A DNA stretch of 43,632 nucleotides from a virus: positions 1 to 43,632 of the IMG/VR virus record IMGVR_UViG_3300047409_000436. One strand, written 5' to 3'. Of the stretch, positions 1,563 to 43,632 are shown piece after piece (positions within the stretch are counted from its first letter, which is position 1; each line of letters begins with the position of its first letter). Under the pieces are notes generated by a model, which did no database searches, was not told the origin of the DNA, and saw nothing but the letters and a program-made list of their open reading frames with translations. The position numbers and the translations under genes were made by a program.

Positions 1563-4500
1563 ATGCCTGCAACTCTGGCAACTTGTGAAGTCTACGGGAC
1601 AATCCATGACGTCTTTGCGCAACCGGTCCAGGGCGCCGTTGTAGGCGTCATGGCGGTCTACAAGCAAGGCGCGCTTGTGCTATCCAGGACGCGCGAGGTT
1701 GAGACGGACGTTGACGGCTATTTCACGCTCGAGTTACCGCGCGGGCCGGAGTGCGTTGCAATTCTCTACGCAAACACGCCAGGTCTAAACATATCCGCAC
1801 TTGGAACGCCTACCGCCATTCCGGACGCGGACTCGGCGGAGCTCACTTCGATAATTGGGGATTTCAACCTTTGGGACCAGGTACCGGTTGCTATTCCAAT
1901 TGGCGCCGGCGTCTCGAGCTTCAACGGCCGCCGTGGGGACGTTGTACTATTGAGCTCAGACGTTACCGGCGCGTTGGGCTACACGCCGGCGGACGCCGCG
2001 GCGCTTGCGGATTATGTCCCGCTTGCGGGCGGCGTTATGGCGGGGTTTCTGACGCTCAGCGGAAATCCGCTTTCAACCTTTCACGCGGCAACAAAAAACT
2101 ACGTTGACCAGGAAATCATAGACGCCGTTGCGGCTATTCCGCCGTCCGGCGTCTCGAGCGTTAACGGCCGGACAGGCGACGTTGTCCTGACGGGCGCGGA
2201 CGTTTCCTCGGCGCTAGGCTATACGCCGGTCAATAAAGCCGGAGACACCATGGCGGGCGCGCTTATCCTCAGCGCCGATCCGCTAGTCAACCTCGAGGCC
2301 GCAACAAAGCACTACGTTGACATACAAATTGCGGCCGGCGGAGTCAATACCGCGGCGGATTACTTATGGACTGGAAAGCATGAGTTTGCGGGGCCGTCAC
2401 CGGCCGTCCGCGCTAATACGTATGCAACGCGCGTCGGCGGATTCATGAGTTTCAATAGTGACTCGACCATTTCAATGAATGCAACGTCCGCGGGCGGACA
2501 AATGCAATTCAACGGGCCGTCAGGCTCGGCGTTCCGGATAGATGCAACGTCCGCAAAAATCACGCATAACGGCCAAATCATACTTAGCTTGACGTCGCTA
2601 CCGGCCGGCGGCGCGTCAGTAATTTTTCAATGCTTCGATAATTCATTCATTCAACGGGCGCACTATTTCCTGAATGATAGCGGCCGGCATTTCTTCAACG
2701 CTCCGTCAATAGTTGATACCGGAAACGCGGCGGTTACGATCTACGCCGATGATACTCACGGCTCAACCTACGGATACGCTCTGCAATGCAACGGGGCGGC
2801 TATTTTTACGGGAGCCGTCACGCTACCGTCCGCGGCTCCGGTCAACGCTACTGACGCCGCGTCGAAGGCTTACGTTGACGCTCATTCCGCCGGCGTTGAC
2901 CTTGCGGCCAATTACAATTGGACGGGGTTGCATACTTGGACTAGTCCAGGGGCGATTAGAGTCGGGCCGGCTCCGGCCGCAAGCGGAGGTATCAGGCTAT
3001 CGGACGGGGCCGCGGGCTCCATTGTTGCTCATTCCGTTGCAGGCTCCGCGGACGTTGAACTGATAAGGCTCGGCGCAACCTCCGGACAAATCGAAATAGG
3101 CGGAGCGGCCGCGGACGGTCAGAACATGGCCGTTTCAAGCTATGGCCGCGTCGGGCTCGGTCTCAACGCAAGCGGCTCAAGTACGCGGTTACAAATTGCG
3201 GTCTGGAATAGCATATCAACCGCGATATACATGACTGATACGATTTCAACCGGCGGAGGAATGACACTTGTTTCTCCGACGGTCAACGGCGGGACCGATT
3301 ACGGACAAATACTATTTGCTCAACATGACATTCTTTTTAGCGTAGGCTCCGCGTCTCAAGGCGTCAGGATAGTGAACGGATACGGGCTCAAACTTCATTC
3401 CGGCGATGTAACGCTATTCCAGGCTCCAACGCTCCCGTTACACGCTACAACAAAGGCTTACGTTGACGGGCTCGCGTTTGGCGGAGGCGGAGCCGTCGAC
3501 CTTGCGGCCAATTACGCATGGACGGGAAATCATACTTGGAATAAAACCATCAAGGTTTATACGCCGGTCAACGGCGGCGGTATCTCCATTCAAGAGGGTG
3601 CGGCAGGGTTTCTATCACCGACGCTTTCTTTTACCGATAGCGCGGGGACGGGACTTGCGTCCATGGGCGTTGCGCGAACCGCGGGGGCGTTCCTTCCAGG
3701 CTCGGCGGTCAACGATGTGTGTCTTTATAACGTTTACGGTGCAACCTATATCAACTTTCAGACTTACGCGCAGTTTGTTTGGGGCACTTATGCAACCAAT
3801 ACAAACCCCGTCACCATCGGCTATAACAGTCTCACGGCAAACAATTATCTATGCGTCGGGGTCCCATGGGTTGCAAGCAATAATGCGCGGGTCATGGTTC
3901 AGACAACCGGCATGCCGGAGTTTGCTTTAGCGTTTACAAACGCGGTCAACGCCTCGGTTAATTTTCAGACTCAAGCCGCGGGCGTTTCCGTCAGCGGCAA
4001 CGCCTCCGGCAAGGGCGCGTCGTATATTACGGTTTACGGCGACTTGAGCATAGCTCGCTATGTGGATCAAACAACCGTCCAGCATTGGCTATATTGCCGC
4101 GATATCGACACTCCGCCAGGATTTTCAACTTACTGTTTCGGTCAAGCCGCGTCACCAGGATATTTCTTTTTCTGTACGGTCGACGGCTCAACGCCGCTTT
4201 TAGCGGTCCATACTAACGGCGACGTCACACTCGCGCATGATCCAACGTCCGCACTACACGCCGTTACAAAACAATATTCAGACTCGAAACTCGCGAAGTC
4301 TGGCGGAACGCTTACGGGGACGCTTACGCTTGCCGCGGATCCGGTCAATCCGCTTGACGCCGCGACTAAACAGTATGCGGACACTAAGGTCCCGAAGGCG
4401 GGCGGGACCATGACGGGACTGCTAACGCTCAGCGCAAATCCGTCCGGAGTCCTCGACGCGGCGCCCAAACAATACGTTGACTTGCGGCTACTCAAAGCCG

Positions 4501-4952
4501 GAGACACCATGACGGGCGCGTTGACCATGAGCAACGTTTCGATAATTCAAAACTCCGCGGCGCTAGGGGCGCTTACGGTAGGCGTCCAGGAGGAACTACT
4601 TACGCTTGCAACCGGCGCGCTCACTACGGACACGGCCGGAAATCTCTTGCCGGCAAACTCTATAATTTTGAGTGTCACCGGCCGCATAACAACGGCGATC
4701 AACAATATTACGAATTGGAAATTGGGAGACGCAACGATAGCGGACCGGTTTACGGCCGTCTCAACAACGCTCACGGCCGGCACAACGGTTGTAGGGCTCA
4801 ATATGTGGGACGCCTCGAGGGTTACGGCCGGCATGGGACAGATACAGGCGGCCGCGGCAAAGGTCCGCGTGACTGTTACGGGGACTCAGAACACCACCGG
4901 CGCTATCCGGATCACAACGCGCTATCTGACGGTTGCCGCGGCTACTAGCTAA
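1563..4952 (+). CDS. Large fibre-like protein with repeated tail-fibre modules
   Basis: A 1,129-residue protein. Residues 1-110 look like a small transthyretin/carboxypeptidase-regulatory-like beta domain (YGTIHD, DVDGYFTLELPRG). Two copies of a VNGRTGDVVL / ALGYTP module follow near residues 118-140 and 198-220. A recurring ATK-YVD motif appears near residues 178, 250, 435, 630, 905, 938 and 970, and a DLAANYNWTG/HTW motif is also repeated. These modules are typical of trimeric phage fibres. The unusual point is location: it lies between the neck gene and the tail terminator, not after the tape measure. It may be a neck or head fibre, or a displaced receptor-binding fibre. Confidence 0.75.
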   Translation: MPATLATCEVYGTIHDVFAQPVQGAVVGVMAVYKQGALVLSRTREVETDVDGYFTLELPRGPECVAILYANTPGLNISALGTPTAIPDADSAELTSIIGDFNLWDQVPVAIPIGAGVSSFNGRRGDVVLLSSDVTGALGYTPADAAALADYVPLAGGVMAGFLTLSGNPLSTFHAATKNYVDQEIIDAVAAIPPSGVSSVNGRTGDVVLTGADVSSALGYTPVNKAGDTMAGALILSADPLVNLEAATKHYVDIQIAAGGVNTAADYLWTGKHEFAGPSPAVRANTYATRVGGFMSFNSDSTISMNATSAGGQMQFNGPSGSAFRIDATSAKITHNGQIILSLTSLPAGGASVIFQCFDNSFIQRAHYFLNDSGRHFFNAPSIVDTGNAAVTIYADDTHGSTYGYALQCNGAAIFTGAVTLPSAAPVNATDAASKAYVDAHSAGVDLAANYNWTGLHTWTSPGAIRVGPAPAASGGIRLSDGAAGSIVAHSVAGSADVELIRLGATSGQIEIGGAAADGQNMAVSSYGRVGLGLNASGSSTRLQIAVWNSISTAIYMTDTISTGGGMTLVSPTVNGGTDYGQILFAQHDILFSVGSASQGVRIVNGYGLKLHSGDVTLFQAPTLPLHATTKAYVDGLAFGGGGAVDLAANYAWTGNHTWNKTIKVYTPVNGGGISIQEGAAGFLSPTLSFTDSAGTGLASMGVARTAGAFLPGSAVNDVCLYNVYGATYINFQTYAQFVWGTYATNTNPVTIGYNSLTANNYLCVGVPWVASNNARVMVQTTGMPEFALAFTNAVNASVNFQTQAAGVSVSGNASGKGASYITVYGDLSIARYVDQTTVQHWLYCRDIDTPPGFSTYCFGQAASPGYFFFCTVDGSTPLLAVHTNGDVTLAHDPTSALHAVTKQYSDSKLAKSGGTLTGTLTLAADPVNPLDAATKQYADTKVPKAGGTMTGLLTLSANPSGVLDAAPKQYVDLRLLKAGDTMTGALTMSNVSIIQNSAALGALTVGVQEELLTLATGALTTDTAGNLLPANSIILSVTGRITTAINNITNWKLGDATIADRFTAVSTTLTAGTTVVGLNMWDASRVTAGMGQIQAAAAKVRVTVTGTQNTTGAIRITTRYLTVAAATS

Positions 4953-13346: not shown

Positions 13347-16300
13347 ATGCCGCGTGAGCTACCGACCGGATTAGTCGCACTCCTCAAAAGCGGATTTGCG
13401 GAAACGCATTCAACGCTTGCTATAACTCTCATCGGCGCCGGCCGCTCAATCAACCAGACAATCTATCTAGCAACGGCCGCGGAGGGCGGACAGAACGCTC
13501 CGCCTGTAACCGCTCCGCCTCCGGCTCCGCTCACAATCCCAAACGCCGGCTTTGAGGCTCCAATACTTGCGCCTCCTGGATACGCTTTCAATCCGGCCGG
13601 CGCCTCCTGGACGCTTGCGGGCTCGAGCGGACTTATCCAGGGCGGCTTATTTGGCGCCGCGGCCGCTCCCGAAGGCGGCCAGGTTGCATTCTTGCAGGAG
13701 GCAAGCGGCGTAATCTCTCAAGTCCTGACAGGCTTTATTGCGGGCGTTAACTATGACGTCAAGTTTAAGGCTTGCCAACAATTTGTAGATCACACTGAGG
13801 ACTTTGACGTCTACATGGACGCCATCCTCATAGGCAACGCAAAGCCGGCCGGCGTTGCGTTTCAACAATTCTCATTTCCGTTTGCCTCCGGACAGACAAG
13901 CTACACGCTAAAATTCCAGGGCAAAAACACGGCCGCCTATGCCGGCAACACCGCTTATATAGACGATGTTCAAATTGTCCCGTCCTCCGGCGGGATTAGC
14001 CGGCCGCCAGGCGGGCGCGGCGTCGAATACCTCCCGCGGCTCCGCTCAACGGGGCCGGTTGCCATGTCCCTGACGCGCTCCGCGGACCGCGTCGACGTTG
14101 TTGTTGAAAACATAGACCGCTTGACCGGCAATCAACTTGTTGCGGTTCAAGACGTGCTTTATGGCTCTTTTGCGGAGTTTGGCCGGCTATGGCGCGACTT
14201 ACGCAATCCGGCAAACGTTTATCAAGTCACGCTACTCACCGGTCAGGTTGTTGCCGCGCGCGCCTCGGAAACAGAAGTCCAACTCACGCTCATGAGTGAT
14301 ATTTACTCGAGCGGAGCTATAGCCGGCCAGATAATTTACGGGCGCTCATGTCCCTGGACGTTTAAGGACGCGGCAACGTGCGCCTACGCGGGGCCGCTTG
14401 CAACGTGCAATAAACTCCTGGACTCGCCGGACGGTTGCGCGGGCCGGAGCAATGAGTTTCATTTCGGCGGCTTCCCGTATATCAAAAGCGTTGACACCAT
14501 CAGCGGCGCGTCCGCTCTGCAACAAAACGTCCAGTATCAAACCATCATTCAACCGGCCGCACTCACGGCCGCGGAGCTCGAGGCCGGCGCGCGCGCAACA
14601 ACCGCAATAATTCAACGGCACAATTTACTCTTGCAGGGTTTTACGGTTACGGACGACGCGGTTAACGATGCGACTAAAATTGTTGCCGGCGGCGTGGGCG
14701 GAGCCAATTATCAAACGCTCAAGGAAAACGACGGCTATAGCTACGTCCGGACCTTACCGCCTCAACCGACGCTCAATTTCCTCAACAGCTTCAAACTAAA
14801 AGACGATCCTGGCAACCTCGAGACGGACATAACAACCTACGGCGTCCCGACGGGCCAGCTCAACGTCCGGACTGATTTCAGCGCCTCCGGCTCAATAGAC
14901 GTTTCAACCGTTGTCACATTCAATATAGGCGGGATTGTCACGCTTGCGGACGTTCTAAACCTTCAACCAGGCATGGGGATTTTGGTTGAGGGCGCCGGAT
15001 TTGGCGGGGCGGATTTCTTAGGGACCGTGGGCGCCGTTTCCGCGGACGGCAAGACGTATGTTTTAACCACGGGGTTTACTCAGGCGCCTCCGGCCGGCGC
15101 GCGCGTACAAGCGGATGATACGGTTGCGGTCCAGGCGTGGATTACAGCGCATGGCGACCTGGCCATGCCTCCTGGATACTACCGGCTCACTAACTCAATT
15201 GTTGTCCCGTCAACCTCAGAAGGTTTTTCCGTAATAGTCCATGGCTCCGGCTGGGACTTGTCTGTCTTTGCGTTTCAACACGGCGGGGACGGTTTCATTC
15301 CTACGGCTCCGGACAGGAAAATTGACAGCCTTGTCTTTAAAGACTTGTCCGTTGCAACGGGGACAAAGTGGGACAACACCGGACTCCTGGACGCAAACAA
15401 CCATGGCTTTGGGCTCCGCATGACGGCGCCTACGCTTACCGGAATTTACAATGATTGTGTTTTGGAGCGTTGCCGCGTCATAGGCTGGGGCCGCTTTGGG
15501 TTGCTGTCAGATAACGCCGAGGTTTGTTGGATTACTCAGTGTATTTTCCGTGAGAACAAACACGGACACGTTGCGCTATTGGCTCCGGATCAGATAGAGG
15601 CGCCCAAACAACCTAACGCTAACACGCTAACGTCTTGCACGTTTGACCAGGCGTTCGGCGGAGGCGATGCAACGCGGACCGGAACGGGCGCCATGACGGC
15701 CGCGCGCGCCGAGCCGCCTCCGCTCACTCAGGCGGAGATTGACGCCGCGCGGACGCTCACGCTTAGCGGTATATCACTGACGGCGGCGGACCGCGGCCGG
15801 CTTGTCATAGTCCAGGGCGTCGGGACAAACGTTTCCAATCTCTACTCTTTTATTGACGTTGTTTTGAGCTCGAGCTCATGCCGGCTAGGGCATGATTGCC
15901 GGAGCTCAAGCGGATCCGCTCCGGTTACGGTTTTTTCGAGCTCCGTCGCGTCAATCTTCCTCAACCGCGCGCATGACACCGTAATTGACGGGGCAACAAT
16001 TCAGGGCAACTTTACAAACGCTTTGACCGGCGTTGACTGCAACGCTATCCGCGCGGACGGTTGCGCTAACCTCCGCATTGTAGGCGTCCATGAGGAGGAC
16101 GCCGGCGGCGTAGGCGGGGCCGCCGTCCGCCTCGAGAATTGCCAATCCGTCACCATCGAAAATTGGGGCGGGACAAGCGCGGGACCGCCGGCGTTTACAA
16201 ACGCTCACGGCGCAGACTTCCAGCTAATCAATACTCATGGCGTCCGCGTCTCTCAATGCTATTTCAATGACAGACCGCAATTTGTCATGGACGGCAATAG

Positions 16301-19300
16301 CGATGCCGAAATTGATAATTCCCTAGTCACCGGACACAACAACCTATGGCAAGGGGACGGCTCATGGGAGCGGCTAAAAATTGGCTCCGGCGTCCGGACC
16401 TATCAAGCCGCGGACGCGCGGACAAATCAGACCGCCGGCAATGAGTACATGTATGACGGGCTCCTGGCGCGGGAGGTTCTACTCAACTCCCGTTTCATAG
16501 ATGCTCCGGCTCCGTCAACAACCTCCTGGACAACCGCGCAACCTACCTGGTGGTCCTTAGTCTACGGATCGCCAGAACGCTTCGATTCATATTTGAGGGT
16601 TAACGCAACCGCGGAGGCGGCCGGCGGAGGCCAGAAGATATTCTCACAGACGGTTGCGGTTCCGGATTCAATACCGGCCGGCTCCTGGATTCTAGGCGTT
16701 GACTGGTACATAGAGTCGGACGCTCACGTTACGGCAACCGGCGCCTATGTTGAGGTCCGGCTCAAGCCGTCAACCGGCGTTGAGGAAACGCTCCAATGGT
16801 CCTCGAGGGCATACACCTATATCACCGGCGTTTGGAACGTAGGACAAGTCAAGGCGTGGCTTGGAACGGGGACAGGGCGGACTATTGAGGTCCAAATCAA
16901 CGTCACGCCAGGGCCGTCAAATCCCATCATACGGCTCACTAATTTCAGGCTCACGCGCGGCAAACATAGCTTCGGAGCATGGGCGCGGCCGGTTACGGAC
17001 TTCGGCGGGAAAATGCGCGCGCCGCTCGAGTTTGAGCCCATAGCCATTCCGCCGGCCGCGGGCGGCTATCCTCCTCCGCCGGCCGGCTCGCCGGTCCTGT
17101 CAATAGTCAACATTGCCGGAGTCCTCAATCAAGGCAAGAACGGCGCCTATACGCCGCTAGGGACAACCGGAACGGGCGGACCTATAAGCGGGCCGCCTAA
17201 CTATTACGCAATTTTCAACGCGGCCGGTAACAATCTTGACTACGCTTCAATCCGTCAGGATGCGCCAGGCATTGTCCATATTCTCAACGTTCCGCTCTGG
17301 ATTGACCGGCAACGGGCGCTGATTTCTGACTACACGTCAAGCGGGCTCAAGGCAACCATAGCAATTTGTGACTATGACGACGTGGTTTACTTTGGGCCGG
17401 ACTTCAACGCGGCCGGAGCTCAGACGGGCACCAACGTTGTGATCCGCGCGGCGCATGGGGACGTTTCGAGTTTGCAAATCAGCGGCGCCGGCCGGCGCAT
17501 GACGTTCAATTCTGATTTAGCTTTGACCGGCGTTACGCCTCCGCTCCCGACCTTTTTTGTAGGCATTTCCGACTTGAGTTTGGACGGGCTCCGCATTCAA
17601 CAGACCGTCGCGGGACTCTACGTCGGATATATGCTTTCCTGTTTTTTCTCCGGAACGGCAACCGATGCTTTGTTTGCGGTAGATCAGAAGGGCGGCTTAG
17701 CGCGGCTCAATAACCTCAGCTATCTCCAATGGCCAATCAATCATGGTCCAGGCGGGGCAACCGTCCTCACAAATAACGGCTCCGGAACGCTCACGTGGGC
17801 TCCGGCGTCCGGAGGCGGGCACGTTATCCAGGACGAAGGCGTCCCGCTAACGGCTCAAGCGGCGCTCAACTTCACCGGCGCCGGCGTTACGGCGTCAAAC
17901 GTTGGAGCCGCAACCAACGTCAAGGTTGAGACGGCCGGCGTGGCGCAAGAGGGCGCCGTCTCGATCAGTCCTCAGCATTTCAGCGGCGCCAAATTTTTCC
18001 ATAACGGCGTCACCGTTTACCTTGATAGCGCGGGCTCCGCGGTTGCGCTTGTAGTGCAATCAACAAACGGGACAGTAGGCGCGCATATCCAGGACTGGTG
18101 GGGCGGAGGCGGGACCGCCATTGCCTCAATCAACGATCAGCCAATCCTCCGTCTTGGAATACCGGCCGGCCGCGCGGGGTTTGTTGAGCTCTGCAATGAT
18201 ACGGGCTCAGGCACCATTCAATTAGCCGGCGGGCAGGGGCAAGCCGTTTCATACACGCTCAAGTTTCCGGCGGCGGCTCCGGTTGTTGGCTCAACCTTGC
18301 AAGTCCTCAACGCCGGCGGTCAACTTGTATGGTCCGCGGCCGGCGCCTCCGGACATGTGATCTATGAGGAAACAACGCCGCTTGCACAGCGGGCGAACCT
18401 CAAATTCCAGGGCTCCGGCGTTACAGCGACGGACAACGGGACGGACACCGTTATTACGCTCAATCCGGCAACGGCAACGCTTGAGGGGATTGTCTCGTCC
18501 ATAGGTCAAACTTTTGGCGGCCGTAAGACGTTCAACGCCGGCGCCACAATGTTAGGGCTGGCTTCAACCGTTCCAGTCCTCACGGTTGCACTTGCCGTGG
18601 GCGCCTCACCTACGGGCCGCTTGCAGGAATGGCAGGACGCAAACGGACAAGTCCTGGGCTACGTTGACCAGACTCCGGCGTTTCACTTAGGGGCGCAGGG
18701 TTTCACAACCGGCATGCTCGAGCTTGCCTCCGCCTCCTCCGCAAACTTTACAACGCTCCGCGCGGCTACGTTTCCGGCCGCCTCACTTATCTATGTCTTA
18801 CCGGTTGTCAATCCGGCTCCTGGACAAGTCCTCGGCGTTGACACGGTTGTCGGCTCGGTTGTCAACACCAAATGGCAAACCTCCGGAGGCGCCGGCAATG
18901 TCACCGTTACGGCGCCGCAGGGGACAGAGCGTTATGTCCCGCGTTGGAGCGGGACAGGAACGGCAACAACAACAACGTTGGTTGACTCCGCAATATGGGA
19001 CCGGACCGCAACCGGCGGAACGCTTGAGATTGCATGCAATCAATTGTTGTTTCACCGCATGGACGGAACGGACTTACAGGACTTTTATCAACGGGCCGGC
19101 TCCGGCGCCGGCGCTATCTGGCGCGTTGACCGGCGGACCGGATCGTATCCGCCAAACGGCATGGCGGACGCACTCAATACTATTGAGCTCCAATTACACT
19201 TTGAGCCAACTTCCGGAGGCGGACCAGGCGACCATCCGTTTTTCCTTGCCGGAGATAAACACTCATGGTTTCAATGCGGCTTGAGGGTCCGGCCGCACTC

Positions 19301-21002
19301 AACAAACGTTGGAGTCATGGGAAATACCTTCGAGGTCCAGGACGCCGGCGGAGTCCAAAAATTCGCCGTTGCGCAAAGCGGCAACCTTGCAATTATTTCA
19401 GGCGTTACCGGCTATAACTGGCCAGGGGCTCACGCCGTGGGGTTTCTGCAAAACAACGGCTCGGGCAATCTCTCATGGGGCTCCGGCGGCTCCGCTCACA
19501 TCATCCAGGAGGACGGGACGGACTTAGCCGCGCAACCGCGGCTCAACTTCCAGGGCGCCGGCGTCACCGCGGCCAACGTGGGTGCAGTAACCAACGTCAA
19601 GGTTGAGACGGCGGGACAATTCCAGGAGGGCGCCGTCTCCGTTGGAACGCAACATTTCGGCGGAGCAAAGTTTTTCCACAATGCAACAACCATCTATGAG
19701 AGTGCGGGCATTCCGCTAGTCCTGCAATATACGGGCGTTGGTTCAACCTCACATATACAAGACTGGTGGATTACGGGGACAACGCCGATTGCCTATATAG
19801 ACGCTCAACCGGTCCTCCGGTTAGGCATACCGGCGGGACGCCAGGGCTATCTCGAGCTCTGCAATAGCTCAACGGCAAACACCGTCCAATTAGGCGTCTC
19901 GAGCGGGCCGCAGTCCATGATAATTAACTTTCCAGGGGCGTGGCCGGTCAATAATCAATATTTGCAAGTAGCCTCAACCGGAGGCGGCGTGGTCAATCTG
20001 CAATGGCAGACAATCACGCCAGGAGGCGGCGCCGGCTCCGGCACAAACAACACTCTGGCGCGCTGGACTACAACCGCGGGCGTCTTGCAGGACTCCGGCA
20101 TAGCTGACACCGTTGCGTCCGGCGCGGGCTCCGCCGGCTTTGGGATTATCATAAACCGCGATTTCCTATACGGCCGCTTGGACGGAACGCTCAACCTCGG
20201 GGACACTACAACACGCATCGGCGGCGTTTTTGTGAAGAATAATTTCTGGATGTGGGCCGGAGCCAATGCCGGCAACTCCGCCTCAAGTCCTACAACCATG
20301 GGGTTTTTGAGCGGAGGCGCGTCAACGTATTCGCGGATACTTGTGTCAGGCAATGAAAATTGTATCCAGGGCTCACCGCAAAACGGGCGCATGACGCTAG
20401 CGGCTTATCACGCTATTGAGCTCCGCGGCTCGAGGCGTCAAACCTCAGCGCCTAGCGTTTCAACAACGGTTGGAGACGGCTATGGCGTTTTGGTTTTCCA
20501 GGATATTTTCGATTTTGTCCCGTTCATGGTTGATACGCAATTTAACGCCGCAAGTGATTTGACGCGTTGGCAAAACAACGGCGCGTTGCAGGCGGCTATA
20601 GGGCCGGCCGGCTCGCTCCGCTGCGGAGGCATCGGCGGCCGCGTGGTGCAAGTCAATCCAGGCGGAGGCGCAACGCTCAATCTAAATCAGGCGCCTTACC
20701 TCGACGCTCACTTCCTCATTTTTGAAATGGTCAATGGCTCATTCAGCGTCATAATGCCTCCGCTAAGTGCGCTCATAGACGGGCGGGAATATTACTTTCT
20801 TATGAAGTCCAAAACAGCCGGCGGGATTTTAGGCGTCAAGACTCAGGGCTCACCGGTCCAAAATCAAATCAATGAGTTTGCCATGACGTCCGGCTCCGTT
20901 TGGAATTTGAACAATAGCGATCAGAGTCAAAGGTTTACGCTTTGGGTCGCGGACTACGTTAACAACAATTGGCGGCTGGTTGAGTTTGGACTATCGCCAT
21001 AA
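13347..21002 (+). CDS. Giant tail-tip protein: gpL-like Fe-S module fused to beta-helix and fibre repeats
   Basis: A 2,551-residue protein. Residues 1-50 are a tail-tip start; about 60-210 look like an inserted carbohydrate-binding jelly roll (IPNAGFEAP, YIDDVQIVP). Residues 215-375 match the C-terminal part of gpL/BR0599-type tail proteins, with Cys335, Cys345, Cys354 and Cys364 placed to hold an Fe-S cluster, then FGGFPY. About 580-930 resemble a pectate-lyase-type beta-helix (MPPGYYRLTNSIVV), suggesting polysaccharide binding or cleavage. Three related fibre modules start near 1492, 1670 and 2051. The fusion would anchor receptor-binding parts directly in the tail tip. No catalytic residues were verified. 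Confidence 0.75.
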   Translation: MPRELPTGLVALLKSGFAETHSTLAITLIGAGRSINQTIYLATAAEGGQNAPPVTAPPPAPLTIPNAGFEAPILAPPGYAFNPAGASWTLAGSSGLIQGGLFGAAAAPEGGQVAFLQEASGVISQVLTGFIAGVNYDVKFKACQQFVDHTEDFDVYMDAILIGNAKPAGVAFQQFSFPFASGQTSYTLKFQGKNTAAYAGNTAYIDDVQIVPSSGGISRPPGGRGVEYLPRLRSTGPVAMSLTRSADRVDVVVENIDRLTGNQLVAVQDVLYGSFAEFGRLWRDLRNPANVYQVTLLTGQVVAARASETEVQLTLMSDIYSSGAIAGQIIYGRSCPWTFKDAATCAYAGPLATCNKLLDSPDGCAGRSNEFHFGGFPYIKSVDTISGASALQQNVQYQTIIQPAALTAAELEAGARATTAIIQRHNLLLQGFTVTDDAVNDATKIVAGGVGGANYQTLKENDGYSYVRTLPPQPTLNFLNSFKLKDDPGNLETDITTYGVPTGQLNVRTDFSASGSIDVSTVVTFNIGGIVTLADVLNLQPGMGILVEGAGFGGADFLGTVGAVSADGKTYVLTTGFTQAPPAGARVQADDTVAVQAWITAHGDLAMPPGYYRLTNSIVVPSTSEGFSVIVHGSGWDLSVFAFQHGGDGFIPTAPDRKIDSLVFKDLSVATGTKWDNTGLLDANNHGFGLRMTAPTLTGIYNDCVLERCRVIGWGRFGLLSDNAEVCWITQCIFRENKHGHVALLAPDQIEAPKQPNANTLTSCTFDQAFGGGDATRTGTGAMTAARAEPPPLTQAEIDAARTLTLSGISLTAADRGRLVIVQGVGTNVSNLYSFIDVVLSSSSCRLGHDCRSSSGSAPVTVFSSSVASIFLNRAHDTVIDGATIQGNFTNALTGVDCNAIRADGCANLRIVGVHEEDAGGVGGAAVRLENCQSVTIENWGGTSAGPPAFTNAHGADFQLINTHGVRVSQCYFNDRPQFVMDGNSDAEIDNSLVTGHNNLWQGDGSWERLKIGSGVRTYQAADARTNQTAGNEYMYDGLLAREVLLNSRFIDAPAPSTTSWTTAQPTWWSLVYGSPERFDSYLRVNATAEAAGGGQKIFSQTVAVPDSIPAGSWILGVDWYIESDAHVTATGAYVEVRLKPSTGVEETLQWSSRAYTYITGVWNVGQVKAWLGTGTGRTIEVQINVTPGPSNPIIRLTNFRLTRGKHSFGAWARPVTDFGGKMRAPLEFEPIAIPPAAGGYPPPPAGSPVLSIVNIAGVLNQGKNGAYTPLGTTGTGGPISGPPNYYAIFNAAGNNLDYASIRQDAPGIVHILNVPLWIDRQRALISDYTSSGLKATIAICDYDDVVYFGPDFNAAGAQTGTNVVIRAAHGDVSSLQISGAGRRMTFNSDLALTGVTPPLPTFFVGISDLSLDGLRIQQTVAGLYVGYMLSCFFSGTATDALFAVDQKGGLARLNNLSYLQWPINHGPGGATVLTNNGSGTLTWAPASGGGHVIQDEGVPLTAQAALNFTGAGVTASNVGAATNVKVETAGVAQEGAVSISPQHFSGAKFFHNGVTVYLDSAGSAVALVVQSTNGTVGAHIQDWWGGGGTAIASINDQPILRLGIPAGRAGFVELCNDTGSGTIQLAGGQGQAVSYTLKFPAAAPVVGSTLQVLNAGGQLVWSAAGASGHVIYEETTPLAQRANLKFQGSGVTATDNGTDTVITLNPATATLEGIVSSIGQTFGGRKTFNAGATMLGLASTVPVLTVALAVGASPTGRLQEWQDANGQVLGYVDQTPAFHLGAQGFTTGMLELASASSANFTTLRAATFPAASLIYVLPVVNPAPGQVLGVDTVVGSVVNTKWQTSGGAGNVTVTAPQGTERYVPRWSGTGTATTTTLVDSAIWDRTATGGTLEIACNQLLFHRMDGTDLQDFYQRAGSGAGAIWRVDRRTGSYPPNGMADALNTIELQLHFEPTSGGGPGDHPFFLAGDKHSWFQCGLRVRPHSTNVGVMGNTFEVQDAGGVQKFAVAQSGNLAIISGVTGYNWPGAHAVGFLQNNGSGNLSWGSGGSAHIIQEDGTDLAAQPRLNFQGAGVTAANVGAVTNVKVETAGQFQEGAVSVGTQHFGGAKFFHNATTIYESAGIPLVLQYTGVGSTSHIQDWWITGTTPIAYIDAQPVLRLGIPAGRQGYLELCNSSTANTVQLGVSSGPQSMIINFPGAWPVNNQYLQVASTGGGVVNLQWQTITPGGGAGSGTNNTLARWTTTAGVLQDSGIADTVASGAGSAGFGIIINRDFLYGRLDGTLNLGDTTTRIGGVFVKNNFWMWAGANAGNSASSPTTMGFLSGGASTYSRILVSGNENCIQGSPQNGRMTLAAYHAIELRGSRRQTSAPSVSTTVGDGYGVLVFQDIFDFVPFMVDTQFNAASDLTRWQNNGALQAAIGPAGSLRCGGIGGRVVQVNPGGGATLNLNQAPYLDAHFLIFEMVNGSFSVIMPPLSALIDGREYYFLMKSKTAGGILGVKTQGSPVQNQINEFAMTSGSVWNLNNSDQSQRFTLWVADYVNNNWRLVEFGLSP
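17820..19700 (+). repeat. Three related modules inside the giant tail-tip gene
   Basis: Modules begin at 17820, 18354 and 19497. Their proteins open with HVIQDEGVPL, HVIYEETTPL and HIIQEDGTDL, continue with LNFTGAGVTA, LKFQGSGVTA and LNFQGAGVTA, and end with an FSGAKFFHN, FGGRKTFNA or FGGAKFFHN motif. The first and third are closest at DNA level, including VGA-TNVKVETAG. Each module is followed by a variable tip segment, so this is a receptor-binding fibre built by duplication of a conserved joint and exchange of tips. Confidence 0.7.
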
Positions 21003-21020: not shown

Positions 21021-21386
21021 ATGCCTACGCTCGAGTTTAAGACAATCCCGTTTGCAGACGGACAGGGCGCAATTAACTATAAAGAAGTCATACGCCTCGC
21101 CGTCAAGAATCCGGAGCCGCAAAACGGACCGGACGGCCGGCCAATTCCAGGCTCATTTGACTTCGACCAGCTTTTCTATGCGCTCAAGCTAATTGACAAG
21201 ATTGACGCCGCAAACGGCCGCCTTGAGCTCACCGAGGAGGAGTCCAAGTATTTAGTAGGGCGCGTCAAGAAAATGGGCTGGATGCAGGCGGACCGCGCTA
21301 TAGGTGAGTTTTTACGGGACGTTGCCGCGCTTGATCCGGCCGCGCAACTTCCGGACTTTGCAAGCGATAGTGATAAGGTGCAATGA
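21021..21386 (+). CDS. Hypothetical tail-tip cluster protein
   Basis: A 121-residue, acidic, helical protein between the giant tail-tip gene and the hub gene. It has CGGAGG upstream, and its stop overlaps the hub start (ATGA). It contains a KYLVGRVKKMGWMQADRAIGEF helix region (positions 75-97). The family is not recognised; a small assembly factor for the tail tip is possible. Confidence 0.5.
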   Translation: MPTLEFKTIPFADGQGAINYKEVIRLAVKNPEPQNGPDGRPIPGSFDFDQLFYALKLIDKIDAANGRLELTEEESKYLVGRVKKMGWMQADRAIGEFLRDVAALDPAAQLPDFASDSDKVQ

Positions 21387-22741
21387 CACGGCCGCTCAAT
21401 ATTCAACCGTTCCTCGAGGATAACCCATGGGGCGATCCTACGGGCCGCGATCCAACGGATCCAGGGGCGGGCGGCGGCTCACCTACGTCACCGCTCAACA
21501 ACGTCATAAATGATTTACAAACGGACGAGGGCGCCGTCAAACCGCTTGCATACGGGCGCCATATTGTTGCCGGCCAGCTTATTTTGCATGACTACTCAGC
21601 GGGGCCGCCGGCCGCCTCAACCGTCCTGGTAGCGTTAGGCGTTGGAGAATGGGACAGCGTCGAAAAACTTTGGTATGCCGGCGATGAGGTTGCGCCGGCC
21701 GCTTATCACTTTCACCCAGGGACTCAGAGCTCCGGCGTTGCGGATCCGGTCCAGGGCATAGACTCTTTTTTCCCCACCGGCTTGACCTATTCAGAAACGG
21801 CATACATTGCCGTCCAAGTCCCCGAGCCGTTTGTCTCTGAGGACAGGCCGGATAAACTCCGCGGCTTATACAAGACGCTCAAGGTTGCGGACTATGACGC
21901 AAACGGAAATCAGACCGGCTACGGATTCAGCGCAAATCCGGCGCGCGTTGCCGCGGACTTGATACTCAAGCGGGGCAAACGGCCGGCAAGCCGTATTCAT
22001 TGGGGATCATGGACGCTTTTCCGGAACTATTGCGATGAGCTCATACCGTGGGAGGACGGGACAAAAGACGAGGGCGGCACAAGTGTTATCCGCTCAATCA
22101 AGCGGTTTGAGTGTCACATTGTATTCAGTCAGGCTACGGACCTGGCGTCGGCGCTCGAGTCCGCACTCGGGACCGCCGGCGCATTTTGGCAGGACGACGG
22201 CCGTCAAATCCGCTTTTTACTTCCGCGCAACGGCGCCGTTATCCATGCCTTTACGGAGTCCAATATTGTTGAGGGCTCATTCTCTTTTTATCAGCGGGAC
22301 ATAAGGGAACGGCCAAACCGCTTGCAAGCAAAATTCCGCAACACGGACGATCCGTTTTTGATTGAGACAACGGTTGAGACAAAGCGGGAGGCGTTGCAGG
22401 ACAAAGTGGGCGTTGTCGATCCAGGCGTCCGCAACTTTGGAAGTATGACGGTTGCCCAGGCTCAGCGGCTACTTGAGAGACAAATGAGGCTCGAGGCGGA
22501 CTATGCAATCTTTGCGGAGCTCCGCGGGCAAGGGGACTCACTCCACGTCTTGCCTGGGGATTACGTCACCGTCACGCATACCGTTCCGCTATGGGCCGGA
22601 GTCCGTTGTCTTGTCATAGACGCCGTTGACGAGTCCGCGGAGCAATATGCGGATGAGCGGAGTTTTCTATTACAACGCGTTGACAACCAGGTCTATTCAG
22701 ACACGGACCAAAAACCGATTCAACCGGCTATTGCACCATGA
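21383..22741 (+). CDS. Tail-tip hub protein (gpJ/TipJ-like)
   Basis: A 452-residue protein. The opening part has a Gly/Pro loop (DPTDPGAGGGSPTSP) and a KPLAYGRHIVAGQLILH strand pair, as in the N-terminal part of phage hub proteins. The middle and C-terminal parts show hub-type motifs: GAFWQDDGRQIRFLLPR, RDIRERPNRLQAKFRN and DSLHVLPGDYVTVTH. It would form the end of the tail tube with the gpL-like protein. It is shorter than lambda gpJ because the fibre part is carried by the 13347 gene instead. The next small gene overlaps its stop by four bases. Confidence 0.7.
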   Translation: MTRPLNIQPFLEDNPWGDPTGRDPTDPGAGGGSPTSPLNNVINDLQTDEGAVKPLAYGRHIVAGQLILHDYSAGPPAASTVLVALGVGEWDSVEKLWYAGDEVAPAAYHFHPGTQSSGVADPVQGIDSFFPTGLTYSETAYIAVQVPEPFVSEDRPDKLRGLYKTLKVADYDANGNQTGYGFSANPARVAADLILKRGKRPASRIHWGSWTLFRNYCDELIPWEDGTKDEGGTSVIRSIKRFECHIVFSQATDLASALESALGTAGAFWQDDGRQIRFLLPRNGAVIHAFTESNIVEGSFSFYQRDIRERPNRLQAKFRNTDDPFLIETTVETKREALQDKVGVVDPGVRNFGSMTVAQAQRLLERQMRLEADYAIFAELRGQGDSLHVLPGDYVTVTHTVPLWAGVRCLVIDAVDESAEQYADERSFLLQRVDNQVYSDTDQKPIQPAIAP

Positions 22742-22881
22742 TTTGTCCGCATTGCAAAAAGACGAAACTTGTCGGGCAAGGGCGCTATTTTGGATGCTGT
22801 GCTAAGTGCGCCAAAAGGCTATTTGGCGGCGTCATGGTAATTCGACCGCCAAGCATCGGAGTCGGACAGAAAACACCATGA
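22738..22881 (+). CDS. 47-residue zinc-ribbon miniprotein
   Basis: A short ORF that overlaps the hub gene stop (ATGA) and whose own stop overlaps the next start (ATGA), the same coupling on both sides. It begins MICPHCKKTKLVGQGRYFGC and continues CAKC, giving two CxxC-type pairs that would bind zinc. Short Cys-rich ORFs at this place in tail-tip operons may be assembly factors, but no family is known to me. Confidence 0.6.
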   Translation: MICPHCKKTKLVGQGRYFGCCAKCAKRLFGGVMVIRPPSIGVGQKTP

Positions 22882-24383
22882 GTACACTAACGCTTTCACC
22901 GCCATCGGCAATCATGGTTCCGGAGGGTTTCCAGGAATTTACGCTTGTTGCGGATCCTCCGCCGGCTATGTGGACGTCCGTTGCAAACGCCGTTGTCCAG
23001 TCAAACCTGGCAATCAAGCCGGCAAACCTTGCCGCAACCATGTCCGCTTACGGCGTGCACCGGCTCCGCCAGGGGACGGGGACCGTTACGTTTCAATTTG
23101 ACTCCGCCATGTTTCCGGCGTCCGGCGGCGTGTTTGGCGCAAACCTACAGGACGCGGACTCGGCATTGTTTGCCGGCTGGGAATACAACCGGAGCACAAA
23201 CTCACTCAGGGTTTACAACCAGACCAATTCAAACTTGCATACCTTTCCTGTGATCCTCGGGACAGGGGACACCGTAACAATTGAGATTGCCGGCTCAATC
23301 TGGCGCGTCTCATACTCGAGCTCGAGCGGGACCGATAGCACGTCATTCACACCGTCCTCCGGCATTAAGTATCCGTGTTTTTACGGCGTGGCAATGTCCG
23401 CAACTATGACGGCCGGCTCATACTTTCCAATCCCGACGTTGTTTGGACAATGGACAATGTTAGCGGATCCGTTTTGGACTATTTCAGGCGGGACAGTCAC
23501 GCCGGAGTCAGGCGTTGCGCGCGCGCAATATTACGCCGGCGTCTCAAACGTTGGCCTAGCTCCTGGGCTGTATCAAATAGCCGCAACTTATGCGGACTCT
23601 GTTTTCCAAAAGGCAATCGGAAACATAACCGTCCAGGCGTTGCAAATCCTGGGGCCGGCCGCCGTTGCGCTCAATCCTGGACAAGTAATTGACTTCAACA
23701 CAAATTATAAACTTGTCTCATGGTCCGCCGTGGGCGGCGGTTCGATTACTCAGGACGGACTCTATACCGCTCCAACAACGCCAGGCTCGTACACCGTCCG
23801 CGCAACCTACGGAGCTCAAAACGCAAACGTCACCGTTACCATCGCGGCAACAATCACGCCGCAACTTACCGGAGCGTTTCCAGGGCAAGTGGTCCAATTC
23901 TCAACCAACATGCCGTCGCCGGTCTGGACGTCAACGTGCGGGACTATGACGGCCGGCGGACTCTGGACGGCGCCGTCAACGCTTGGCGGCTCATGCGTTA
24001 TCACCATGACGTCCGGCTCAACCGTAGTCACGCTAACCGTTCCTATCCTGGATTTCTTCCCTTACGATCCGTCGGTTGCCTTTACGGACGATGTTACCAA
24101 AACCGTTTTGATGAGCATGGCGGAGGACGGTAGCAGAACGGCAAGAGTCAAAAATCAATATAATAAAAGCCGGCGCAAGTACGAGCTCACATTCCGCAAC
24201 CGTGATCCGCAAGAGTACCTGGCCGCCGAAGGTTTCTGGCGCAGTCACCATCCGGACAAAACTTTCATATTCAGAGACGCTATCTTAGGACTTGACGTTG
24301 AGGTCTATTTTGATTCGGATTTCCGTTGCGAACCCCAGGCGGGCTGTCCAATAGATTACAGTTTCCGCTTGATAGAAAGGTGA
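22878..24383 (+). CDS. Ig-decorated tail-tip protein with gpM-like C-terminal domain
   Basis: A 501-residue protein from the ATG coupled to the zinc-ribbon gene; an upstream in-frame alternative start at 22806 is less likely. Residues 1-190 look like a jelly-roll or lectin-like beta sandwich. About 195-385 hold three Ig-like units, two with the pattern W(T/S)...GG...GLYTAP...TVRA (GLYTAPTTPGSY and GLWTAPSTLGGS). From residue 391 on, the sequence resembles lambda gpM/phage minor tail families: KYELTFRNRDPQEYLAAEGF, KTFIFRD, VEVYFDSDF and a closing YSFRLIER. It thus appears to be a tail-tip ring protein carrying surface-binding domains. Confidence 0.65.
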   Translation: MSTLTLSPPSAIMVPEGFQEFTLVADPPPAMWTSVANAVVQSNLAIKPANLAATMSAYGVHRLRQGTGTVTFQFDSAMFPASGGVFGANLQDADSALFAGWEYNRSTNSLRVYNQTNSNLHTFPVILGTGDTVTIEIAGSIWRVSYSSSSGTDSTSFTPSSGIKYPCFYGVAMSATMTAGSYFPIPTLFGQWTMLADPFWTISGGTVTPESGVARAQYYAGVSNVGLAPGLYQIAATYADSVFQKAIGNITVQALQILGPAAVALNPGQVIDFNTNYKLVSWSAVGGGSITQDGLYTAPTTPGSYTVRATYGAQNANVTVTIAATITPQLTGAFPGQVVQFSTNMPSPVWTSTCGTMTAGGLWTAPSTLGGSCVITMTSGSTVVTLTVPILDFFPYDPSVAFTDDVTKTVLMSMAEDGSRTARVKNQYNKSRRKYELTFRNRDPQEYLAAEGFWRSHHPDKTFIFRDAILGLDVEVYFDSDFRCEPQAGCPIDYSFRLIER

Positions 24384-43355: not shown

Positions 43356-43632
43356 ATGGCAAACGCAAATCCTCCAACGGGGACATGGCCGGCCGCGGTT
43401 GCGGCCGGCTACCTGGGCATAGCGGTTGATCCGACGCCTAATCTCAATTACACGGTAGCCGGCGTGGTGCAACCGTTGCCTACGCCGGAGTCGCAGTATA
43501 AGCAAATCCGCGCGGCTCAGCGGGCCGTTGTTACCGCGGCCGTTGACGGGACAACCGCGGTTGCGGCGGTTCCGGTCCTCACCGCCATCAGTCCAACAAC
43601 GGCGTTGCATGGGACGGCGGACGTACTTTGCA
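43356..43632 (+). CDS. Ig-like virion protein, 5' part of gene split by contig ends
   Basis: This part starts MANANPPTGTWPAAVAAGYL with GGAGTAG upstream and runs off the end of the window in frame. Joined to 2-367 it gives a 159-residue protein. The N-terminal 45 residues are a small domain; the middle is linker (YKQIRAAQRAVVTAAVDGTT) before the IPT-like domain. Confidence 0.75.
   Translation, partial: MANANPPTGTWPAAVAAGYLGIAVDPTPNLNYTVAGVVQPLPTPESQYKQIRAAQRAVVTAAVDGTTAVAAVPVLTAISPTTALHGTADVLC
43469..43632. repeat. Right copy of the contig-end overlap
   Basis: Same as 1-164 except for a at 43595 (t at 127). With this overlap removed the circular genome is about 43,468 bp. The single difference suggests minor population variants in the sample, not a separate repeat. 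Confidence 0.9.

Follow-up and report, generated by a model that had tools for sequence, protein, structure and literature searches.

In phage lambda, each tail has three copies of the tail-tip protein gpL. As with gp137 of Pseudomonas phage nickie, this protein carries an Fe-S motif of four cysteines and, after it, N...FGG[FY]P, and its gene is flanked by that of the tape measure upstream and that of a gpJ-like hub downstream. The function of the Fe-S cluster conserved in gpL-type tail-tip proteins is still to be characterized (PMC10721106), and with LSH1 and Jersey, the hub has been described as prone to fusion and the C-terminus of gpL as hypervariable (PMC13243795). Equivalents of gpL have been described in JBD30, where the upper baseplate protein gp50 has four metal-binding cysteines (PMC11445458), and in RcGTA and roseophage R4C, the gp13-like hubs of which possess four cysteines with an Fe-S cluster together with an inserted sugar-binding domain (PMC7296036; PMC10276861). 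Lambda gpJ and LSH1 gp25 combine a hub and a receptor-binding part within one tail-tip chain (PMC13243795). The present study concerns a single gene of the virus record IMGVR_UViG_3300047409_000436 (positions 1 to 43,632; this entire stretch is referred to below as the window). Its product is probably a gpL-type tail-tip (hub-ring) protein to whose C-terminus, beyond the Fe-S domain, an entire tailspike-like fibre is fused, with a proposed role in both docking at the tip and forming a spike.

The gpL-Type Tail-Tip Part

The gene (13347..21002, plus strand) is an open reading frame (ORF) of 2,551 residues that begins with ATG 4 bases past the stop of the tape-measure gene and is uninterrupted by internal stops. 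It thereby occupies the position of gpL, directly after the tape measure and upstream of a gpJ-like hub and, as had been read earlier from the sequence alone, a single chain carries both the L and the fibre parts. An independent 42.9-kb contig, IMGVR_UViG_3300045110_000090 (L004), has the same architecture at the same gene position in an ORF of 2,559 residues; the values of identity and of the ratio of nonsynonymous to synonymous change (pN/pS) given below refer to this relative unless otherwise stated.

The evidence for the gpL relationship is centered on residues 335-380 (14349..14486), a segment that terminates in FGGFPYI. The four cysteines noted previously as being in a gpL-type arrangement are located exactly at residues 335, 345, 354, and 364, and 20,000 shuffles of the fused protein never reproduced their spacing, CX9CX8CX9C. 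This spacing is identical in nickie gp137, a 212-residue protein encoded at the gpL position, and the four cysteines are invariant across nine sequences. When residues 1-388 of the window protein and its relative were combined into a profile and compared by hhalign with one built from eight stand-alone gpLs, the Fe-S domain aligned with a probability of 98.7% (E 1.5e-16), and the eight-protein profile in turn matched lambda gpL in the PDB (8iyk_L; E 6.4e-12). A fold other than that of gpL had been named beforehand as the finding that would count against the assignment; the sequence profiles instead support a gpL Fe-S domain for which cluster binding is predicted.

The gpL-type N-terminal (HDI-like) domain would begin with residues 1-48 (13347..13490), which are 78% identical to L004 and start with MPR.L where nickie gpL has MPKNL (MAFFT alignment). 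It would resume with residues 216-334 (13992..14348), where G225 and Y228 are invariant with six stand-alone gpLs. The position of the gene, these two residues and the similar first residues are what suggest that this domain is of the gpL type. Between the two segments, an insert of approximately 165 residues (residues 49-215; 13491..13991) interrupts the domain and resembles the jelly-roll-type domains of bacterial extracellular proteins. It matched TIGR04362 (choice_anch_C) from profile position 3 to 157 of 157 with E 8e-5, a resemblance only, given that its 22.9 bits miss the curated cut-off of 120, and PF22825 (HpiC1-like) with E 4e-4, also below the curated cut-off; tblastn matches were to Planctomyces (planctomycete) and Hymenobacter plasmid proteins. 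The insert is approximately 55% identical between the two fused proteins, and the segments that flank it are well conserved (pN/pS 0.18-0.19; 0.18 for residues 216-334). The sequence-only reading had placed a carbohydrate-like domain ahead of the L part; such an inserted domain, resembling choice-of-anchor C and HpiC1-like domains, does exist, but its location is inside the gpL N-terminal domain.

The Fibre Part

Residues 381-445 (14487..14681) form a linker that is unique to the fused proteins. This linker may be a relic of fibre sequence because it resembles the start of the second fibre module (see below), with a score of 44 against a shuffle mean of 25 and only one of 1000 shuffles scoring as high. 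The fibre head (residues 446-589; 14682..15113) follows, at the beginning of which homology to stand-alone fibres sets in by BLAST, and then a right-handed beta-helix of the tailspike/pectate-lyase type (residues 590-1060; 15114..16526). When excised, the beta-helix region scored 29.7 bits with PF13229, above the cut-off of 25.9, and VIA-align of residues 848-1053 returned Z scores of 11.2 to 4mxn, 11.1 to the Klebsiella K1 capsule lyase, and 9.9-10.0 to the tailspikes LKA1 gp49 and Fri1 gp49. By both profile and fold comparison, residues 848-1053 are a right-handed beta-helix, as had been anticipated for the region after the L part, and the alternative of another fold did not hold.

Structure prediction in pieces, an approach proposed in the sequence-only reading, succeeded for the beta-helix and was poor elsewhere. 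AlphaFold gave usable confidence for residues 1-1191 in the beta-helix alone, and residues 1352-2551 were modelled with a predicted local distance difference test score (pLDDT) of 27. No significant match to the PDB was found with Foldseek, nor any by sequence search with the whole fused protein, and profiles A1, A3, A13, and A15 gave no useful match to the PDB. Matches in BFVD were set aside, their template modelling scores being about 0.07 with a query model of low confidence, and a match of profile A5 to polyubiquitin was discarded as a 31-residue chance match.

Beyond the beta-helix are a beta-rich domain that varies from relative to relative (residues 1061-1240; 16527..17066; 28-50% identity over most of its length, pN/pS 0.55), which the stand-alone fibres also have, and a conserved fibre segment (residues 1241-1490; 17067..17816; pN/pS 0.15). 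The three related modules described earlier were recovered with starts at residues 1491, 1669, and 2050, and they are 29-57% identical in pairs (E 1e-18 to 1e-61). M1 (residues 1491-1668; 17817..18350), delimited by this comparison, is followed by M2 (residues 1669-1850), which is 88.6% identical to M2 of L004, and a variable segment (residues 1851-2049; pN/pS 0.38), these two together spanning 18351..19493. M3 (residues 2050-2225; 19494..20021) is 57% identical to M1 of its own chain and 37% to M3 of L004. The third module is thus M1-like in the window and M2-like in L004, which points to an exchange of modules within the gene. The chain ends with a hypervariable tip (residues 2226-2551 and the stop; 20022..21002), where identity falls to 16-46% and pN/pS reaches 0.59-0.73; decreasing identity and climbing pN/pS toward the C-terminus are as expected of receptor-binding parts. 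Module-like sequences recur in IMG/VR, with 54 loci and a variety of N-terminal platforms; the gpL motif accompanied them only in the known relative, L004.

Stand-Alone Counterparts and Origin of the Fusion

A scan of IMG/VR with the beta-helix profile recovered five contigs with stand-alone fibres (L081-L085) which represent four distinct phages, L081 and L085 being 95% identical. These fibres are homologous to the window protein from its residue 446-457 onward, at 54-57% identity (tblastn), through the beta-helix. Where complete, they comprise 1,575-1,802 residues and have the C-terminal modules in common. Each starts with a different N-terminal anchor of approximately 95-120 residues that lacks the gpL motif. 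With the four contigs in which upstream sequence is present (L082-L085), the fibre gene directly follows that of a gpJ-like hub, which is 774-796 residues long where complete and partial in L084. The existence of these homologues indicates that two normally separate genes were joined in the window, and so bears out the earlier claim of a receptor-type fibre fused at the L position.

The two fused fibres form one clade (support 100/99), and hence the fusion looks like a single joining, dating at least to the ancestor of the window and L004 genomes. Most parsimoniously, a mobile fibre cassette would have been joined once to a gpL-type tail-tip protein. The metagenome 3300045110 holds both the fused (L004) and an unfused (L084) fibre. 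In the hubs of two phages with stand-alone fibres (L082, 5394-7718; L085, 4832-7222), four cysteines are conserved on the N-terminal side of the gpJ core. The notion that the 774-796-residue hubs are single-chain L and J proteins was not upheld, with hhalign to gpL giving a probability of 1%, and it is retained as a lead only.

Proposed Function at the Tail Tip

By analogy with lambda gpL, the N-terminal part of the fused protein would dock in the ring of three-fold symmetry beneath the tail tube, with three chains per virion, and if it does dock in this manner, three fibre chains leave the tip. Beta-helix tailspikes of the P22, Sf6, HK620, and LKA1 type are generally trimeric. Since such spikes are usually homotrimers and lambda gpL is present in three copies, the three fibre parts would most simply form one axial trimeric spike rather than several fibres, and it may fairly be inferred that the number of fibres is fixed to that of the ring. 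The L chain would thus do the receptor binding for which the gpJ C-terminus otherwise serves: the beta-helix would bind, and possibly cleave, a surface polysaccharide, the variable tips would set host specificity, and receptor binding would be relayed to the hub without a non-covalent joint. Fe-S binding is a predicted function of the fused protein, and depolymerase activity a possible one. A further, decidedly speculative thought is that receptor engagement is relayed along the chain into the gpL Fe-S domain, where the cluster would work as a latch, mechanical or redox, to open the tip. If true, the fusion would be a natural, covalently wired ejection trigger and would provide a function for the universal, unexplained Fe-S cluster of tail tips.

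Several observations weigh against this view of a gpL-type ring protein bearing a spike. The hhalign match is confined to residues 298-377, leaving the N-terminal beta-sandwich of gpL unconfirmed, and the AlphaFold model of that domain has pLDDT values below 65 and mostly below 60. The fused clade consists of two genomes, and the protein is that of an uncultured virus known here from its genes. Trimerization and receptor binding are deduced from the type of fold, and ring position, stoichiometry, and any enzyme activity are likewise inferences.

Alternative Explanations

Given the unusual size of the gene and the 204-285 residues of its unfused relatives (see below), the joining of two genes by an error of assembly or sequencing had to be considered, a chimera of neighbouring ORFs being the outcome that the sequence-only reading had named as its refutation. 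The fused ORF of L004, however, was assembled independently, shares 76% identity with the window ORF across the first 484 residues, and is separated from it by near-saturated synonymous divergence. At the junction, where synonymous sites are also near saturation, pN/pS is 0.20 for residues 385-430 and 0.08 for residues 431-520, the latter segment ranking among the most conserved parts; judged by these ratios, the junction evolves as coding sequence under strong purifying selection. Because an independent contig holds the same fused ORF and the junction evolves in this way, an assembly chimera is rejected, and a joining error of either kind is scarcely credible. A different proposal would have one chain made and then cleaved, or an internal re-initiation, so that the virion would contain a gpL of the ordinary small size and, apart from it, the fibre. 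Phages are known to have precursors and self-cleaving fibres, which offer a general precedent, and cleavage could take place in the 65-residue linker. Nevertheless, the linker is conserved in both genomes, and the only possible starts in residues 361-540, TTG429 and GTG450, both lack a Shine-Dalgarno sequence, and no start for a free-standing gene is present; processing of this kind is considered unlikely.

Of greater weight, although still the less probable arrangement, is that the protein is fused as described but that its fibre parts stand as three separate side fibres, monomeric or otherwise assembled, around the tip. The generally trimeric nature of such beta-helix spikes argues against it, as do the three fused chains themselves, which are just enough for one trimer. 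The baseplates of RcGTA and R4C do bear three side fibres, but each of these is a trimer of separate proteins (PMC7296036; PMC10276861). It is also conceivable that the N-terminal part serves solely as an adaptor derived from gpL, with the ring formed by another protein and the fused protein serving as a peripheral fibre. The N-terminal domain is indeed broken by the insert of approximately 165 residues and has diverged beyond profile detection; yet the window genes that were scanned included no other gpL-like protein, the gene lies exactly at the gpL position, and the low pN/pS of the segments flanking the insert speaks for their conservation, all of which render an adaptor improbable. A gpL-type ring protein that bears a single trimeric spike is the favoured interpretation.

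Neighbouring Genes and Genome Context

Downstream of the fused gene, a 121-residue protein (21021..21386, plus strand) for which the family searches gave no match precedes the gpJ-like hub (21383..22741, plus strand). The latter had been called short and is indeed so: it has 452 residues, is 82-84% identical in L004, and ends soon after the hub core. Residues 134-420 match positions 470-772 of the 1565-position profile phrog_31 (central tail fibre J; E 2.3e-13), and the chain stops 32 residues beyond, such that the C-terminal FnIII/central-fibre part is absent. The gene after the hub (22806-24383) encodes an Ig-like part and a C-terminal portion of 105 residues, the latter with weak likeness to Phage_min_tail (PF05939; E 0.036) and phrog_14 (E 0.077) and no match in the PDB. 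If this gpM/Dit likeness is real, the distal-tail protein would also be a fusion, and its gene would lie behind that of the hub rather than ahead of it.

Elsewhere, a tail-fibre-like protein of 1,129 residues (phrog_16641) is encoded at 1563-4952. Its gene immediately follows a neck/tail-completion-like one and lies well ahead of the tape measure, which is unusual for a fibre. A 692-residue MuF-like minor head protein (PF04233; 39070-41148) has a long C-terminal region with a zinc-metalloprotease-like HEAGH motif at residue 579 (nucleotide 40804), and may represent a head-packaged enzyme. The 43.6-kb window is probably a complete genome, represented circularly, since its first and last 164 bases (1-164 and 43469-43632) agree except for one mismatch (127 vs. 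43595); a TIG-domain gene spans the join of the two ends.

Comparison With Known Systems

No paper describing a fusion of gpL with a fibre was found in the literature, none was detected by tblastn among the cultured phages of the searched collection, and scans of genome contigs for the gpL motif recovered no relative. The other gpL relatives inspected with the 3' end present, of 204-285 residues, are all unfused. As the gpL searches reach fairly close homologues only, the rarity of the fusion is not proven; no described precedent was found for it, nor for a fibre joined in this way beside a short gpJ-like hub. As read from the genes, the arrangement suggests that the window virus and one relative have the fibre built directly into the tail tip. 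For annotation it is a caution as well: a large gene labelled "tail fibre" downstream of the tape measure may conceal a tail-tip ring protein.

Whereas lambda gpL and nickie gp137 fall within the 204-285-residue range and end right after FGGFPxI, the window protein adds approximately 2,170 residues beyond this point, together with the N-terminal insert. In RcGTA and R4C, the sugar-binding insert is located inside the Fe-S domain, the C-terminus is a short clip, and the fibres are separate trimeric proteins, while JBD30 gp50 bears no fibre and has its C-terminus buried within the core of the baseplate. The tailspike depolymerases (LKA1 gp49, Fri1 gp49, Sf6, P22, and the Klebsiella K1 lyase) share the right-handed beta-helix, with Z scores of about 9-11 for residues 848-1053, but they are separate tail or spike proteins outside the hub ring, and the window protein is without identified catalytic residues. 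With lambda gpJ and LSH1 gp25, the receptor part is on the gpJ-type chain; in the window it is on the L chain and the J-type protein is short, and in related phages this fibre has a gene of its own. The fusion is of interest here in that it is not yet settled how receptor binding is passed on to the hub. The boundaries between L, J, and fibre can evidently be redrawn, and the fused and unfused fibres constitute a natural comparison of the sites at which the siphophage tip can accept a fibre.
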